A stretch of DNA of 20,280 nt from positions 1 through 20,280 of the IMG/VR virus record IMGVR_UViG_3300046028_005098. The stretch is one strand, 5' to 3'. The notes beneath the pieces were generated by a model. That model was not told the DNA's origin. It saw nothing but the letters and a program-made list of their open reading frames with translations, and searched no databases. Numbering within the stretch: the first letter of the stretch is position 1; every line of letters begins with the position of its first letter. The position numbers and the translations under genes were made by a program. Of the stretch, positions 17 through 15,286 are shown one piece after another. This stretch comes from a virus.

Positions 17-1003
17 CTATACGGCGACCAGGGCGTTCAGCGCTGCCTGCTTCAGACCCGTGTCCTCAAAGGAGCGCGTCATCTGGTCAGTGTTCTTGGT
101 GCGACCGCGGTACCAGTCGCTCCACTCCCCAACCGCGTTCCAAGCCGTCCACGCCGAGCCAGGCGCGTTGCCGGTTGTGTCACCCGCGGCGCCCTCCCCT
201 TTGTAGATGGTCATGATGTCAGCCTTCGCGCTCTGGCGGTTAGCCAGCGCCCTCTTACCGAGGCTGTCATCCTCTTGGAACAAGCCGTCCAGCACGCTGC
301 TGAACTGACGTTCCGTGATGGCCTTCTGGCCAAGGCTGTCGCCCAGCGCGACGAACTGCGATTCGTAATCAACCGTGACGCCGATCACCTCGCGAGCCTC
401 TTCCCAGCGGTCGCCAATGCCGCTCGTATGGCGCATGCGGAAGGTGCGGTTCGCGGTGGTGCCGTACAAGGCGGCGCCCAACGTATTCGCGCACACAATC
501 CGGACGGGCGTAACAGCGCTCGTTACGCTCATGGAGCCGTCATGGCTGCTGGCCACGAAGACGTAAGTAGCAACCTGGTCGCCCGCTACTGACACGAAGT
601 CAGGACGGCGCGCCAGCACCCAAACCTTGCGGCCGCCATGCAGGGAGCCAGCCGTCTCAAAGAGAAGGTCGGTTCCGAGAATGGCGTCAAGGAACTTGAA
701 CGCTTCGCGGTTCTGAACAATCTCGTATGACTCCGAGACGAGTCCGAGCACCTGGTTGTTGTCGTTACGGACGTTCGCGACGGTTCCCTCAACACTGCTG
801 AACCGCTGGTCAACGCCAGCGTCCGTCAGCGTGGTCTCAGCCGGAACGAACAACGGGCGTTGCTCAACTTCCCAGCTCAGGCCGCTCTTCTCGAGGGCGT
901 CATCGATTCCCCGCGGGTAATCCTCAAGTACGGCGCCCATTCCATGCCAGGGCATCTCCCGCACGCTCATCATGCTGTCTGTATCTGTAATTCCTGAACT
1001 CAT
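17..1003 (-). CDS. DUF932 / TIGR03299-type phage-plasmid protein
   Basis: A 328-aa member of the phage/plasmid-like DUF932 group, by the N-terminal PWHGMGAVLEDYPRGIDDAL, the VRNDNNQVLGLVSESYEIVQNREAF region (about 78-102), the GGRKVWVLARRPDF strand, and the TPVRIVCANTLGAAL motif (about 165-179). The family is widespread in phages and plasmids and its biochemical role is unknown; it is usually expressed early and near replication or recombination genes. It has its own promoter and leader. The C-terminus, with SAWTAWNAVGEWSDWYRGRT, is the usual family ending. Bases 1-16 after its stop are too few to interpret. Confidence 0.85.
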   Translation of the reverse strand: MSSGITDTDSMMSVREMPWHGMGAVLEDYPRGIDDALEKSGLSWEVEQRPLFVPAETTLTDAGVDQRFSSVEGTVANVRNDNNQVLGLVSESYEIVQNREAFKFLDAILGTDLLFETAGSLHGGRKVWVLARRPDFVSVAGDQVATYVFVASSHDGSMSVTSAVTPVRIVCANTLGAALYGTTANRTFRMRHTSGIGDRWEEAREVIGVTVDYESQFVALGDSLGQKAITERQFSSVLDGLFQEDDSLGKRALANRQSAKADIMTIYKGEGAAGDTTGNAPGSAWTAWNAVGEWSDWYRGRTKNTDQMTRSFEDTGLKQAALNALVAV

Positions 1004-1036
1004 CTTGGCTTCCTCCTAGTTGGTTTTTGGTTGGTA
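1004..1036 (-). promoter_or_regulatory. Leader module of the DUF932 gene (AACC repeat plus RBS)
   Basis: Minus strand has ACCAACCAAAAACCAACT, then AGGAGGAAGCCAAG before ATG. The repeat is interrupted by an A-run, and the ribosome site is full strength (GGAGG). Confidence 0.72.
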
Positions 1037-1045
1037 CTGAACGTC

Positions 1046-1073
1046 AGTATACACAAGTCTTGGACAAACACAA
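1046..1073 (-). promoter_or_regulatory. Promoter P1 for the DUF932 gene
   Basis: On the minus strand, TTGTGT (1073-1068) and TATACT (1051-1046) are spaced by 16 bases, with an expected transcript start near 1039. It copies P2 in element sequence, spacing and the doubled CTTGTGT heptamer 17 bases apart; even the bases before the -35 (GCCCTTGTGTT) agree. Conservation across two sites in otherwise different sequence argues that this is functional and co-regulated. Confidence 0.68.
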
Positions 1074-1084
1074 GGGCGGCCACC

Positions 1085-1438
1085 TTACCGGCGCCGCTGG
1101 CGCGCCTGGGCGCGTTCCGCGAGCGCTTCCCGCGCTGGCTCTGAGGTGTAAAGGTCGTCCATGACGGCGGCGGCCTGGCGCAGAATGGCGGCGGCGCCCG
1201 CTGGCTCGTAACGCTTGATCAGAGGTCCAGCGAAGCCATCAGCGAGGGCGCTGAAAGTACGGTAGTAATGCTCAGCCGCCTTCTGGTATTCGTCAGCTTC
1301 GTCTTCAGCGTCCGCCCAGGCTTGGAACCTGGCGGCCGTGACGTTGGCGGTAATCATGGCCGAGACGCCCGCCTCCCAAACCTTCTCAAGGCTGCCGGCA
1401 ATGTGGCTGGCGACAGGGTCACTCATGGCCGCAACCAT
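1085..1438 (-). CDS. Hypothetical helical protein (117 or 113 aa)
   Basis: Not recognised. The protein is Ala-rich and helical: SHIAGSLEKVWEAGVSAMIT, FQAWADAEDEADEYQKAAEH, YYRTFSALADGFAGPLIKRY and AAAILRQAAAVMDDLYTSEP, ending in a basic AERAQARQRRR tail. Two starts are possible: ATG at 1438, overlapping the preceding gene by 20 bases, or ATG at 1426 (MSDPVASH), overlapping by 8. Neither has a clear ribosome site, so coupled translation is likely. It is the last gene before promoter P1, and no hairpin terminator is evident between them. Confidence 0.66.
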   Translation of the reverse strand: MVAAMSDPVASHIAGSLEKVWEAGVSAMITANVTAARFQAWADAEDEADEYQKAAEHYYRTFSALADGFAGPLIKRYEPAGAAAILRQAAAVMDDLYTSEPAREALAERAQARQRRR

Positions 1439-1733
1439 CTAGTGAGCGCTCAAGCCGCTCAGCGGCGCGCTTGAGGTCGCTGGCGCCGTAGAGCAATCCG
1501 GCCTTGGCGTCCACGCCATTAGCGAACACTTCTAGCGAGCGGGCGCCCTCTGCCAGCGTGAGCGCCGTGTCCGTGTCGCCCGCGTCAAGGCAAACCACTG
1601 CGACCCGCCAAGCCGCCGCTACCGTCAAGTAGGCGTCAGCTCGGAGGGTCGCTTGGTCACGTAGCGCGCGCCACTCGCGGCGCTGCTGATCACGGGCGCG
1701 GTCGTAGAGCGTCGAGTGGATGAACGCCATCAT
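1419..1733 (-). CDS. Hypothetical helical protein (104 aa)
   Basis: Not recognised. It starts MMAFIHSTLYDRARDQQRRE and is helical throughout. The centre, AAWRVAVVCLDAGDTDTALT followed by LAEGARSLEVFANG, looks like one TPR-type helical hairpin. The end, SDLKRAAERLERSLDG, is an amphipathic helix. Protein binding is therefore plausible but unproven. The ATG at 1733 overlaps the preceding stop; a second ATG follows at 1730 and could be used. A TTG one codon earlier is unlikely to be the start. It overlaps the next gene if that starts at 1438. Confidence 0.68.
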   Translation of the reverse strand: MMAFIHSTLYDRARDQQRREWRALRDQATLRADAYLTVAAAWRVAVVCLDAGDTDTALTLAEGARSLEVFANGVDAKAGLLYGASDLKRAAERLERSLDGCGHE

Positions 1734-1939
1734 CAAGTACCGGCGCGCCAGACGCCCGCCTCGCAGTTGGCGCGCACCCAGCGGCGCGCCTCTGACCAGG
1801 TGCCGACGGGCGCCCAGACGGCGGCCTCAGCGTTGGACGTGTCGGCGCCCTGGGCGAAGAACGCCCAGCTGCCGCGGCCGCGTGGCTTGCGCCCGTGGCT
1901 CCATTCGTATTCCGTGGTATCGAACTCGAACTTGGTCAT
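1733..1939 (-). CDS. Small hypothetical protein with HGRKPRGRGSWAF motif (68 aa)
   Basis: From the ATG at 1939 the protein reads MTKFEFDTTEYEWSHGRKPR, then GRGSWAFFAQ, followed by TWSEARRWVRANCEAGVWRA. The stretch H-G-x-x-P-R-G-x-G-x-W-A-F is a recurrent motif of small phage and plasmid proteins of unknown function; the end forms a helix with aromatic residues. I know of no assigned role. The longer frame to 1996 runs back through the preceding gene's end and the repeat, so the ATG after AAAGGA is preferred. Its TGA overlaps the next ATG (TGATG). Confidence 0.74.
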   Translation of the reverse strand: MTKFEFDTTEYEWSHGRKPRGRGSWAFFAQGADTSNAEAAVWAPVGTWSEARRWVRANCEAGVWRAGT

Positions 1940-1970
1940 GGTGGCTTCCTTTCGGTTGGTTGGTTGGTTA
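1940..1970 (-). promoter_or_regulatory. Leader module of the 1939 gene (AACC repeat plus RBS)
   Basis: Minus strand has TAACCAACCAACCAACC, then GAAAGGAAGCCACC before ATG. The repeat is nearly identical to that before the 2189 gene. Confidence 0.75.
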
Positions 1971-2189
1971 GTTGACTTGGTAGCCGTCTGCATCAACGCT
2001 GGTGATCTGATAAATGGCGCCGTCAGCGGCTACCACCTCAGCGCACGCACCGTCACGAGCCTCAGCCTTGGCAGCTGCTACTTCGCTCTTAGTAACGCCC
2101 TTGATGTCGTTGACGTGAACGTCCTCTACGGCGTCGCATTCTTCAGGTGCGTTTGGGTTGAACTTGGTAACTTGAAAACGAGCGTGCAT
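1968..2189 (-). CDS. Hypothetical protein (73 aa)
   Basis: Not recognised. It begins MHARFQVTKFNPNAPEECDA and continues VEDVHVNDIKGVTKSEVAAA, then KAEARDGACAEVVAADGAIY with a final QITSVDADGYQVN. Short beta strands around a central Ala-rich helix give the look of a compact alpha/beta domain. A coupling or accessory role in the early module is possible but nothing specific is indicated. The full-strength GGAGG site six bases or so upstream fixes the start. Its TAA again falls at the start of the AACC repeat that leads the next gene. Confidence 0.72.
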   Translation of the reverse strand: MHARFQVTKFNPNAPEECDAVEDVHVNDIKGVTKSEVAAAKAEARDGACAEVVAADGAIYQITSVDADGYQVN

Positions 2190-2221
2190 GGTGGCTTCCT
2201 CCTGGGTTGGTTGGTTGGTTA
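2190..2221 (-). promoter_or_regulatory. Leader module of the 2189 gene (AACC repeat plus RBS)
   Basis: Minus strand carries AACCAACCAACC (three or more units), then CAGGAGGAAGCCACC before ATG. The core GGAGG is a full-strength ribosome site. The upstream gene's TAA lies at the head of the repeat. Confidence 0.75.
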
Positions 2222-2533
2222 GCGGTAGAAACGGTTGGCGGCCAGCGGTGCCGTAAGGTTGTGGTACGGGCGGGCGGTTTCAAAGTTGCCGGTCTTGCGA
2301 ACCTCGACGGCGATGGTGTTCGTCCAGACGTAGCTCGTGCCGTGGGCTGTCTTCTGATCCTTGAGCATCTGCGACTCGTCAGCGACTTCAATCGTGATGC
2401 TGTCGTCAGTGCGGTCGGTTACGACAAAGACGTAGAGGTAAGAGCCGCAGCCGGTGTCGTAGGCGCTGTACTTCTTGCCAACCTCAAACTTCGTTGTCTT
2501 TGAGTTGGTCTTCGTGGCGGTTGAGTTGGTCAT
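2219..2533 (-). CDS. Hypothetical protein (104 aa), first gene after P2
   Basis: I do not recognise this protein. From the ATG at 2533 it begins with a Thr/Ser/Lys-rich stretch (TNSTATKTNSKTTKFEVGKK) and then a beta domain. Segments include YSAYDTGCGSYLYVFVVTDR, DSITIEVADESQ, and AVEVRKTGNFETARPYHN, ending in LAANRFYR. Short beta proteins of this style, with YxAYD...C..YVFxVxDRT, are common early phage products of unknown role. A longer frame goes to 2590 but crosses the promoter, so the ATG with AAAGGA upstream is the real start. The TAA stop lies inside the AACC repeat leading the next gene. Confidence 0.72.
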   Translation of the reverse strand: MTNSTATKTNSKTTKFEVGKKYSAYDTGCGSYLYVFVVTDRTDDSITIEVADESQMLKDQKTAHGTSYVWTNTIAVEVRKTGNFETARPYHNLTAPLAANRFYR

Positions 2534-2561
2534 CGTGGCTTCCTTTGGTTGGTTTCTAACC
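2534..2561 (-). promoter_or_regulatory. Leader module of the 2533 gene (AACC repeat plus RBS)
   Basis: Minus-strand leader containing AACCAACC, then AAAGGAAGCCACG directly before ATG. It is the shortest of four similar leaders in this module. Confidence 0.7.
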
Positions 2562-2564
2562 TTT

Positions 2565-2592
2565 ATAATACACAAGTTCAAGCAGAACACAA
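2565..2592 (-). promoter_or_regulatory. Promoter P2 for the small-gene module
   Basis: On the minus strand, TTGTGT (2592-2587) and TATTAT (2570-2565) are separated by 16 bases. The expected transcript start is near 2558, leaving a short leader before the 2533 gene. The -35 lies within CTTGTGT, and a second CTTGTGT abuts the -10, 17 bases further on. The same arrangement is found at the promoter near 1046-1073. The doubled heptamer could be an operator for an activator or repressor as well as sigma contacts. There is no other gene start that it could serve. Confidence 0.65.
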
Positions 2593-2618
2593 GGGCGAAA
2601 CCAAAGTTTTTTTCTGAG

Positions 2619-2715: not shown

Positions 2716-3051
2716 TTAGTCGCCCAGGGCGCGCGCCTTGGCCAGCGCGGCGTACATCAAGATGCCGTGTCGCATGGCCTCCCAAACCAGTGCGACGCGG
2801 TCGCCGCGCTCATCGTTGGCGAGCATCAAGCGGCGCAACTCCCACGTGCCGTAGTTGCCGACGCCATCAGCGGCTTCCTCAATCCACTCCTCAATCAAGT
2901 CGCGCCCAGGCGGGAGCCGCACTCCGCCAGGTTCGCAGCGCCGGTCAGCCAAGGCATGAAGCGCCTCCGCCGCCTGCTCCATTCCTAGGGTCGCGCCAGC
3001 CTCCCTGAGGCACTGCGCCTCAAACTCCTTATCCCGTTCCATGTCGGTCAT
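2716..3051 (-). CDS. Hypothetical helical protein (111 aa), last gene before terminator
   Basis: Not recognised. From the ATG at 3051, which overlaps the phosphoesterase stop as ATGA, it reads MTDMERDKEFEAQCLREAGA at the N-terminus. Helical segments follow, including MEQAAEALHALADRRCEP, DLIEEWIEEAADGVGNYGTW, RRLMLANDERGD, and ILMYAALAKARAL. The longer frame to 3234 lies inside the phosphoesterase and gives an implausible Arg/Gly-rich start, so I reject that extension. The WELRRLMLANDERGDR part resembles short phage proteins of unknown role found near late genes. The stop lies about 35 bases before a strong terminator. Confidence 0.68.
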   Translation of the reverse strand: MTDMERDKEFEAQCLREAGATLGMEQAAEALHALADRRCEPGGVRLPPGRDLIEEWIEEAADGVGNYGTWELRRLMLANDERGDRVALVWEAMRHGILMYAALAKARALGD

Positions 3052-4265
3052 ACTGCCCCCTCTGATTGGTAACTCCAGTCGCGCCAAAGAAGCATGCTGT
3101 CTACCCACTGCGCGAGCTGGACGTTGAACTGACCGCCTGGCCAGATTGTAGCCGTCGCGAAGCCCGCCTGCCAGTCGGGCGCCTGGGTGTAAGACAAGCC
3201 GCCGCGCACCGTGGCCAAGGTGCCAGCCTCGCAACCGAGCAGCGTCCTAGGGTCGCCGTCAATCGAGTGCGCGGTGTGGAACACTATGGACTGCCGGTGC
3301 GTATGCCCGACGATGACGCTGTACCGCAAGTGGTCAATCGTCTTGAGCGCGCTGGCGCCGCTACCCTTCGTGGCGATCCATCCGTGGCGGGCGGCCAGCT
3401 CACTTGTGACGTTCACCTGGCCAGATTCGTATGAGCCGCTGTCGCCCTCGACCCAGTCGATTCCCAGCTCGTCAAGCCGCAACAAGAACGGTACTGAGAG
3501 GACGGGTCGGTCGTTGGCGTCGGGCTGGGCGCGGCGTAGGCCGTAAGTGGCGAACAAGTAATCTAGGACGGCCTTGCGGAGGCGGTCTTCGTGGTTGCCG
3601 TCAAGCATTGACCAGGCGGTGTTCGGGCTGGCCTCAATGTACGACCGCAACAGGCCGTAGCCTTGGTCAATCGTGTCCTGAAGCGTGCTGCTCCACTCCG
3701 GCGTCTTACGGTGGCGGGACACGGCGTCAAAGTCAAGTAGGTCGCCAAGAATGATGGCGCGGTCAGGCTTGTGCTCGGCCAGCCAGGCAAGGACGGCGCC
3801 GTGAAGATCTTTGTCATGGAATGGCACGTGATGGTCGCCAAAGAACGCTACCAGCTCTGGCTCCCCCTGGGCGCGCTGGCGTGGCCTGGCGGGCGGCGCC
3901 AGCCAGCCCTCAACGCGGGCGGGTACAACCATTCCGGCGGTTGGTTCCAAGTCAACGCGGAGCTGCTGGTAATCCGCCCACTGGTTCACCCGACAACGCA
4001 CAACGACCCAGTCGTCAGGGTTGAGATTCCGGGAGCGAAGTAGCTCCTGAATGTCTCCCCATTCCGCTGGGTCGTCTGATGTAATGGCGCGTAGGCCATC
4101 AAGGTATTCTTGCCTGAGCTGCGTGATGTCAAGGCCGCTAAACTTGTTCGCCCGCGACCGGATGGTCGTGGCGCCCAGGCCGAGCGAAGCCGCGACCTTC
4201 TTCCAGCTACCATGCTGAAGGAATAACTCGCGCAGCCCTTCCTCAGTTGTGGCGTCTGGGGTCAC
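3048..4265 (-). CDS. Calcineurin-like metallophosphoesterase with N-terminal HTH-like region
   Basis: A 405-aa protein. The phosphoesterase core runs from about 135 to 380 and has the full metal-binding set: FFGDHHVPFHD (Asp144, His146), ILGDLLDFD (Asp175), LDGNHED (Asn224, His225), ARHGW (His294) and VGHTHR (His321, His323). All ligands appear intact, so it should be active; its substrate (nucleic acid, nucleotide or phosphoprotein) is unknown. The N-terminal 45 residues contain GSWKKVAASLGLGATTIRSR, which looks like a helix-turn-helix. This suggests DNA targeting. Placement behind the lysis genes is unusual for a nucleic acid enzyme. The start is GTG at 4265, overlapping the holin stop. Confidence 0.88.
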   Translation of the reverse strand: MTPDATTEEGLRELFLQHGSWKKVAASLGLGATTIRSRANKFSGLDITQLRQEYLDGLRAITSDDPAEWGDIQELLRSRNLNPDDWVVVRCRVNQWADYQQLRVDLEPTAGMVVPARVEGWLAPPARPRQRAQGEPELVAFFGDHHVPFHDKDLHGAVLAWLAEHKPDRAIILGDLLDFDAVSRHRKTPEWSSTLQDTIDQGYGLLRSYIEASPNTAWSMLDGNHEDRLRKAVLDYLFATYGLRRAQPDANDRPVLSVPFLLRLDELGIDWVEGDSGSYESGQVNVTSELAARHGWIATKGSGASALKTIDHLRYSVIVGHTHRQSIVFHTAHSIDGDPRTLLGCEAGTLATVRGGLSYTQAPDWQAGFATATIWPGGQFNVQLAQWVDSMLLWRDWSYQSEGAV

Positions 4266-4434: not shown

Positions 4435-5205
4435 TTAGAGCAGCGGAAGCCGCTTAGCAATGTTCTGGTCGACGTTGTCGCCAGGGACGCCAGGTACGGC
4501 GCCCTTATCGGTGTTCTGCCAGATTGAGTAGCCGTCCTTTTTCCAGGCGGCCGGTAGGTAAGCGTCAGGGTTCTTGACGTATGCCGCCAGCCAAAGCGGG
4601 CACTCAAAGTTGTAGCTCAGGCGCCCCGTTGCCTTGTCCCAGAATGGACCTCCGGTGTAGATGATTGGCGCCTTGCCGGTCTCCTTCTTGAGGTAACGAA
4701 CCGCGCTCGCCAGGTACTCAATCGTCATGCTGGTCGCAGTGGTTGTGTCCTCAAAGTCAATGACGGGTCTTAGGTCGCCAGGCTTGCCCCAGCCAGCGGC
4801 TCGAGCGCGCTTCATAAAGAACGCCATCTCATCAGCGCCAGTGCGTCCCAGGCGCGGCCGGAGGAAGTGGTAGACGCCCACCTTGACGCCCGCGGCGCGC
4901 ATGGCCTTGACGCGCTCCGTTGTCCAGGTTGGGTCAGCCCAGTCGGCGCCCTCACTGACCTTACAGAACGCAAACTTGATGCCGCCCGCCTTGGCCGCCT
5001 TCCAGTTGACCGAGCCGTTGTACGATGACACGTCAATACCGCGGGCTGGCGCCAACGTGACCATGCCGAGCTTCTCCTTGGCTTGGCGTGACAAGGCAAT
5101 CCAGTGGTTCACCTTTGGCATGTTGCCCCTTGAGCGCCAGTACGAGGCGCGCTTGAGCCGGTAGCTCAGGCGGCGGCGCCAGAGGGCGCGGTTGACTTTG
5201 TTCAT
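4435..5205 (-). CDS. Endolysin, GH25 muramidase (lysozyme)
   Basis: A 256-aa glycan-cutting lysin. The GH25 barrel starts near residue 55: GIDVSSYNGSVNW (Asp58), KFAFCKVSEGADW, VGVYHFLRP (110-118), VIDFED with the probable catalytic Asp150/Glu152, IIYTGG, and IWQ...DNVDQN near the end, where D246 closes the active site. The first 48 residues are a strongly basic helix-rich extension (YRLKRASYWRSRGNMPK). It has no signal peptide character and may bind cell wall polymers or nucleic acid. There is no separate C-terminal wall-binding domain, so this extension may substitute for one (inference). The gene is coupled to the peptidase by ATGA. Confidence 0.93.
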   Translation of the reverse strand: MNKVNRALWRRRLSYRLKRASYWRSRGNMPKVNHWIALSRQAKEKLGMVTLAPARGIDVSSYNGSVNWKAAKAGGIKFAFCKVSEGADWADPTWTTERVKAMRAAGVKVGVYHFLRPRLGRTGADEMAFFMKRARAAGWGKPGDLRPVIDFEDTTTATSMTIEYLASAVRYLKKETGKAPIIYTGGPFWDKATGRLSYNFECPLWLAAYVKNPDAYLPAAWKKDGYSIWQNTDKGAVPGVPGDNVDQNIAKRLPLL

Positions 5206-15091: not shown

Positions 15092-15286
15092 CTACTCCTT
15101 GCCCTTCTCGGGCTGCTTGGTTGGTTTGGTTGGTTTGGTTGGCTTCCAGTCGCCGCGCGCTATTAGCTCAGCGGCAAGCTCGTCTGGCACCTCAACGTCG
15201 CCGCCAAGGTCGCAGGCGTATACCACGCCAGAAGCCAGCGGGATTACTACGCCTTGATGAGGTCCTTTGTAGCTGATGCTTTTCAT
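15092..15286 (-). CDS. Small neck/tail-region protein (64 aa) with KPT repeats
   Basis: A compact beta-type domain, with KGPHQGVVIPLASGVVYACD, then VEVPDELAAELIARGDWKP. It resembles the short proteins often found next to tail tube genes in actinophages, where a Y-x-GPH start and a VPDELA..L helix recur. Its function is not known. The C-terminus is a repetitive KPTKPTKPTK tail encoded by an AACC-type repeat. The ribosome site is AGGAG, seven bases before ATG. Its last codons carry the AAGGAG ribosome site of the tail tube gene, which starts six bases after its stop. Confidence 0.72.
   Translation of the reverse strand: MKSISYKGPHQGVVIPLASGVVYACDLGGDVEVPDELAAELIARGDWKPTKPTKPTKQPEKGKE

Follow-up and report, generated by a model that had tools for sequence, protein, structure and literature searches.

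Organization of the region and of the leaders

The window, i.e., the whole stretch of DNA that was analysed, is the 20,280-base linear IMG/VR phage record IMGVR_UViG_3300046028_005098, whose genes are carried on the minus strand. Portal, maturation protease and major capsid genes lie at its high-coordinate end and are followed by tail genes, below which are found a GH25 lysin, a metallophosphoesterase and the small genes considered here. A near-identical contig, IMGVR_UViG_3300046000_005666 (G004), extends past window position 1 at the left edge, and in its extension lie genes for a ParB-like protein, a small terminase subunit, a RusA-like resolvase and an Erf-like annealing protein. The relevant features of the window are as follows.

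4435-5205: GH25 lysin
3048-4265: metallophosphoesterase
2534..2555, minus strand: leader 1; AACCAACC (2547-2554), AAA, GGAAGCCA (2536-2543), CG, ATG at 2533
2219..2533, minus strand: 104-aa gene following leader 1, weakly matching phrog_36173 (E 0.0038)
2190..2221, minus strand: leader 2; (AACC)4 (2205-2220), C, AGGAGGAAGCCA (2192-2203), CC, ATG at 2189
1968..2189, minus strand: 73-aa gene following leader 2; no family
1940..1970, minus strand: leader 3; (AACC)4 (1954-1969), GAAAGGAAGCCA (GAAA-GGAAGCCA), CC, ATG at 1939
1733..1939, minus strand: 68-aa gene following leader 3; no family
1004..1035, minus strand: leader 4; imperfect repeat ACCAACCAAAAACCAACT (1018-1035), AGGAGGAAGCCA (1006-1017), AG, ATG at 1003
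17..1003, minus strand: DUF932 gene of 328 aa (phrog_1221) behind leader 4
15117..15142, minus strand: possible degenerate relative of the leaders, CCAACCAAACCAACCAAACCAACCAA, within the last codons of the gene at 15092-15286 (KPTKPTKPTK)

The first-pass annotation had placed a leader before each of the starts 2533, 2189, 1939 and 1003 on the minus strand, and direct reading of the sequence located all four there. In each of them an AACC-type run stands ahead of (A)GGAAGCCA-NN-ATG. Leaders 2 and 3 occupy the entire intergenic gap, and, as had also been proposed, each overlaps the preceding stop codon, the repeat beginning inside a UAA at 2219-2221 and 1968-1970, respectively. Leader 1 is located within the predicted 5' UTR of the first operon and leader 4 within that of the second transcription unit, and these two outer leaders make up most of the respective predicted 5' UTR. 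The genes behind the leaders have no family in common, in agreement with the earlier view that the coding sequences are unrelated. A fifth leader, AAACCAACCAACCCGGAAGGAAGCCAAGAATG, is present in the G004 extension (contig start 17360), where it lies inside the coding end of the preceding gene with an ATGA overlap. At the G004 start 18409, GAAAGGAAGCCATG is present and AACC is absent.

The leader region shares no DNA with any named phage in the similarity search, and a search for relatives based on the major capsid protein recovered near-identical contigs only. The host is likely to be actinobacterial, because the majority of DUF932 relatives occur in actinophages and the G004 extension has weak matches (64-70%) to mycobacteriophages of about 70 kb.

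Promoter-like elements

Both outer leaders are preceded by a promoter-like element.

2565..2597, minus strand: element 1, CGCCCTTGTGTT...ACTTGTGTATTAT, upstream of leader 1; -35 TTGTGT (2587-2592), -10 TATTAT (2565-2570), spacer 16
1046..1078, minus strand: element 2, CGCCCTTGTGTT...ACTTGTGTATACT, upstream of leader 4; -35 (1068-1073), -10 (1046-1051), spacer 16

The element has the form CGCCCTTGTGTT-N(8-9)-ACTTGTGTAT, with TATTAT or TATACT as the -10 hexamer. Its conserved blocks occur exactly twice in 23.6 kb, each time before an AACC leader (starts 2533 and 1003), and local alignment of the two copies gives a score of 17 (shuffled maximum 11). The element upstream of leader 1 was not among the listings of a promoter consensus scan; its activity as a promoter is presumptive, and the leaders at 2533 and 1003 likely mark the starts of transcription units. 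The element is unusual in having two TTGTGT boxes (CCCTTGTGTT ... ACTTGTGTAT). A GC-rich hairpin at about 2653-2680, recognized by eye and absent from the scan list, precedes the first copy.

Frequency of the repeat within the phage

The motif AACCAACC occurs 12 times in the window, in all cases on the minus strand (shuffled sequences: mean 0.45, maximum 2). It is not exclusive to the leaders, because five of the 12 matches (3939, 15119, 15128, 16861 and 17002) are located elsewhere. In the window together with the overlapping G004 contig, an AACC run precedes 5 of 40 gene starts, and the probability of at least five is 3.7e-6 given the rate of 0.58% outside the leaders in 45-nt coding-strand windows, while GGTTGGTT precedes none of these 40 starts. 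The outcome that the first-pass annotation had named as contradicting its view, a repeat as frequent away from starts as before them, was not observed, and the oriented association with starts extends across phages (see below). The context GGAAGCC(A) is found ahead of six starts, and the coding strand of G004 has nine copies of the octamer GGAAGCCA, the opposite strand none.

A sixth upstream match (start 15085) falls in the coding end of the preceding gene. This is the run at 15117-15142, which ends about 31 nt ahead of that start and may be nothing beyond coding sequence. It forms the C-terminus of a 64-aa protein and may double as a leader for the next gene. Two other functions of the repeat were considered and rejected. 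A DNA origin or iteron was discarded on the grounds that the copies stand immediately before start codons in a single orientation, and phase variation on the grounds that the repeat number would alter only the leader length and neither a reading frame nor promoter spacing.

Predicted folding

The leader regions are predicted to be weakly structured. From -40 to +40 their median minimum free energy is -6.5 kcal/mol, versus -20.5 kcal/mol at the other starts of the phage (p 4e-4), and the unpaired probability upstream of the start is 0.72 versus 0.46 (p 3e-4). When the leaders were replaced by random sequence, equal accessibility was reached by 2% of replacements at 2189 and 1% at 1939, and by 29% at 2533 and 87% at 1003; leaders 2 and 3 were thus clearly more accessible than their replacements, and leaders 1 and 4 were not. 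The coding strand of the phage has no GGTTGGTT able to pair with the leaders, and Rfam gave no match above the gathering score in the window. The low predicted structure and the lack of GGTTGGTT on the coding strand fit a site at which the 30S subunit could land on unstructured RNA.

Association with start codons in other phages

IMG/VR viral contigs with (AACC)4 at any position were sampled and distinct blocks were scored, a block being positive when an ATG that opens a frame of 60 codons or more follows it within 45 nt. Among the matches listed, 55 of 118 blocks precede a start on the AACC strand and 10 of 118 on the GGTT strand (p 1e-8); the value for random positions is 8.5%. Other repeats were used as controls. 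Among the matches listed, AAAC repeats precede starts in 48 versus 4 of 115 blocks (repeat strand versus opposite strand), AACT repeats in 46 versus 11 of 108, and AACG repeats, weakly, in 21 versus 7 of 112, while ACCC repeats (10 versus 8 of 65) have no bias. The blocks of the first four repeats are those among the matches listed, a fraction of undefined size of the total, and give no densities. The asymmetry of AACC, AAAC and AACT persists when distance, ORF length and start codons are varied. Because AAAC and AACT behave like AACC, ACCC does not and AACG does so weakly, the signal is A-rich, G-poor sequence of low structure and not AACC as such.

A Shine-Dalgarno (SD) sequence is recognized by a simple pattern in 24 of the 55 pre-start AACC blocks among the matches listed and in none of the others, so that the run does not depend on an SD; the median distance from the end of the repeat to the ATG is 13 nt in the same blocks. 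Examples of annotated genes that follow an AACC run in other phages are those for SSB, DUF932, major capsid, head decoration and major tail proteins, several of which are usually abundant; most genes behind such runs have no known function. A rule that the repeat begins at a stop codon (TAACC) is not supported, the preceding T being no commoner in start-proximal blocks.

These counts bear on the view that the runs are functionless slippage repeats tolerated in short intergenic gaps. Tetranucleotide runs would be ill tolerated in coding DNA and would accumulate in gaps, and the variation in copy number between leaders, read directly, would fit such an origin. However, neutral repeats are expected equally in both orientations, whereas 55 versus 10 were observed (p 1e-8, among the matches listed), and the fifth leader keeps its run within the coding end of the upstream gene. 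Moreover, in a small sample of chromosomes from two bacterial phyla, (AACC)4 was rare (9 of 595 genomes) and its association with starts was weak at most. We regard neutrality as very improbable.

The controls also bear on pairing of the CCAACC run with the 16S rRNA. In E. coli, the 3' end of this RNA has a GGUUGG stretch beside the anti-SD. Pairing with 16S rRNA has been proposed for C-rich ribosome binding sites (PMC3310771). For the present leaders such pairing is unsupported at the 3' end: all 28 actinobacterial 16S ends found, from the presumed host group, read GGCUGG, an incomplete match to CCAACC. The geometry would place CCAACC downstream of the SD and not upstream, and AAAC repeats, which are unable to pair there, are equally biased. 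This explanation is hardly credible.

Phages with comparable leaders

When viral contigs were searched with the full leader pattern, two unrelated records and the near-identical contig were the only matches. The 35 matches in bacterial genomes were mostly in unrelated taxa and at about the chance level, except for L162, which repeats the leader of L009; here, one AACC leader is common to a phage contig and an Actinomycetales metagenome-assembled genome, probably as a prophage. Two other AACC-rich phage stretches have no DNA similarity to named phages. One of them, the unrelated 16.5-kb record G041, has about ten AACC leaders on one strand before different genes (a helicase, a primase-like protein, a methyltransferase and small genes without family), joined to its own repeated ribosome binding site (RBS) forms GGAGAGAACATG and GGAAACA(G/C)CATG. 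This parallel means that one repeat with a genome-specific RBS before many unrelated genes is not unique to the window, and it looks as though the module was copied within each of the two genomes. As AACC is joined to other RBS contexts in other phages, GGAAGCCA is not supported as a wider phage motif.

In G041 (L635, 10000-14200, minus strand), short GC hairpins, e.g., GGGGCCGCAAGGCCC, stand directly before several AACC leaders and are possibly modules linked to termination or processing. An (AACC)4 leader also precedes the DUF932 gene of an unrelated phage (L051:10682-11554), and DUF932 genes may favour such leaders. At L639 (770 and 1500), two nearby genes of one phage, beginning MGLN and MGLD, have AACC leaders and similar first codons, which suggests duplication of a leader together with a gene start.

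The sole diverged relative found retains the DUF932 gene (62% identity) behind a shorter A/C-rich leader, TAACCGACCAAAGGAGAAGCAATG, with no tandem repeat, and has TAACCAACGGAAAGGAACAAGATG at another start. On the basis of these two sequences, what persists is the richness in A and C and not the tandem repeat.

The first-pass annotation had also raised the possibility that the leaders are recombination boundaries between which genes are shuffled as cassettes. Leaders 2 and 3 both contain the 18-nt CTAACCAACCAACCAACC plus GGAAGCCACCATG, so that the 73-aa gene lies between direct repeats; an Erf-like annealing protein is encoded in the extension, and G041 contains a partly duplicated module, GGAAACAGCATGACCAACCAACCAACCGGAAACAGCATG. 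However, the common sequence is short, no relative with another gene set between the leaders was found, G004 being identical to the window across 2600-900, and the strand bias and the cases without an SD across phages point to a role in RNA. Shuffling is, in our estimate, quite unlikely.

A further proposal is that a specific factor from the phage or the host, i.e., an RNA-binding protein or a GU-rich small RNA, binds to the leader and would co-regulate the five genes in the manner of GcvB. One sequence is found before unrelated, non-structural genes, every copy has the same orientation, the constant AAGCCA is unpaired with the anti-SD, and GcvB acting at CA-rich sites is a precedent (PMC3879156). 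Against this, the equal start association of AAAC and AACT repeats makes a specific factor less likely, AACC is linked to different RBS contexts in unrelated phages, and neither GGTTGGTT as an internal partner on the coding strand nor an Rfam match was found in the window. Such a factor appears unlikely.

Proposed role in translation initiation

Among the three roles put forward in the first-pass annotation, the best support exists for an unstructured, C/A-rich element that enhances ribosome loading, namely orientation and start proximity across phages, weak folding and published enhancer data. Translation is increased by CA-rich or ACA elements that precede the SD (PMC3879156), AC repeats are found together with GGAGG in RBSs selected for efficiency (PMC3310771), and the single-stranded standby surface controls the rate of initiation (PMC3936740). 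We therefore favour, as somewhat better than an even chance, the reading that the leaders are unstructured translation-initiation enhancers or standby leaders; the effect on expression and the standby mechanism are both part of what we infer. An almost pure A/C run is unable to fold on itself and has no GGUUGGUU partner on the coding strand of this phage. It would give the 30S subunit a single-stranded landing stretch immediately upstream of the SD and AUG, and the SD (AGGAGG or AAAGGA) would be accessible. At the inner genes, where the run spans the gap from stop to start, ribosomes could load independently in addition to reinitiating. That the (A)GGAAGCCA contexts are near-identical points to copying of the module within the genome or to its maintenance by selection. 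What the analysis shows is the position of the leaders, their common sequence, their low predicted structure and, across phages, the association of A-rich, C-containing repeats with starts in one orientation.

Several points count against an enhancer. (AACC)n, read directly, does not contain the ACA triplet of the tested enhancers, and C-rich RBSs, phage-derived ones among them, worked poorly when tested in vivo in E. coli (PMC3310771). ACCC repeats, which are also expected to be unstructured, show no bias, accessibility alone gives no explanation for the constant AAGCCA after the SD, and many phage genes do without such runs.

More tentatively, and with the odds somewhat against it, tandem A/C tetranucleotide repeats immediately before starts may be a recurrent initiation module that phages evolved repeatedly, born by slippage, copied with the RBS of each genome and marking genes for which the phage requires strong or independent translation. 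If the leaders drive initiation, AACC-type runs would be a sequence-only mark of phage genes that are strongly or independently translated, for the most part genes of no known function, and would also supply laboratory expression work with 5' UTR parts that are short and portable. Given the strand bias found over unrelated phages, it becomes possible to test how far phages rely on unstructured leaders versus the SD alone.

Comparison with known systems

In the literature search, which was largely confined to papers outside subscription journals, AACC repeats or tetranucleotide leaders in phages had not been described before. The closest arrangement is that of the Start-Associated Sequences (SAS/ESAS) of cluster K mycobacteriophages (PMC3203893) and Microbacterium cluster EF phages (PMC7302621). 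Both these and the leaders are repeated motifs of single orientation at the RBS position, a few nucleotides before the ATG of several unrelated, mainly non-structural genes; both combine an SD with conserved bases unpaired with 16S rRNA, and some copies overlap the upstream stop. They differ in that the SAS consensus sequences, GGGATAGGAGCCC and GGGAAAGGACCCC, are at none of the leaders: with up to three mismatches, the 13-bp sequences gave one and no matches in the window, respectively (about five expected for each). The upstream part of the leaders is a simple tandem A/C repeat, whereas that of SAS is a 17-bp inverted repeat or a GTAGAG-centred element, and no linked inverted repeat of the ESAS type accompanies the leaders as a set.

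The CA-rich or ACA enhancers of the GcvB targets yifK, dppA and gltI (PMC3879156) have an A/C-rich run beside the SD, are position-tolerant and are proposed to raise initiation, and the leaders resemble them in having an A/C-rich run, weakly structured by prediction, upstream of the SD. Unlike the leaders, however, they were tested in enteric bacteria only, their active unit is ACA, which is absent from (AACC)n, and they have a small-RNA partner, none being known for the leaders. Ribosome standby sites (PMC3936740) likewise present a single-stranded stretch upstream of the SD, as the leaders do by prediction, but are defined by structure, were tested in synthetic 5' UTRs and need no sequence repeat. 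The leaders match the consensus of neither SAS nor CA-rich enhancers, and we file them as a variant of the start-associated phage leaders that would function like a CA-rich enhancer, and not as members of SAS.

The C-rich RBSs and AC-repeat enhancers of GGAGG obtained by ribosome display, with natural phage examples (PMC3310771), share with the leaders a C/A-rich sequence combined with an SD in phage 5' UTRs. They have no tandem AACC and are not common to several genes of one phage. Both also resemble the Kozak consensus at GCCACCATG, a likeness which is taken as coincidence.
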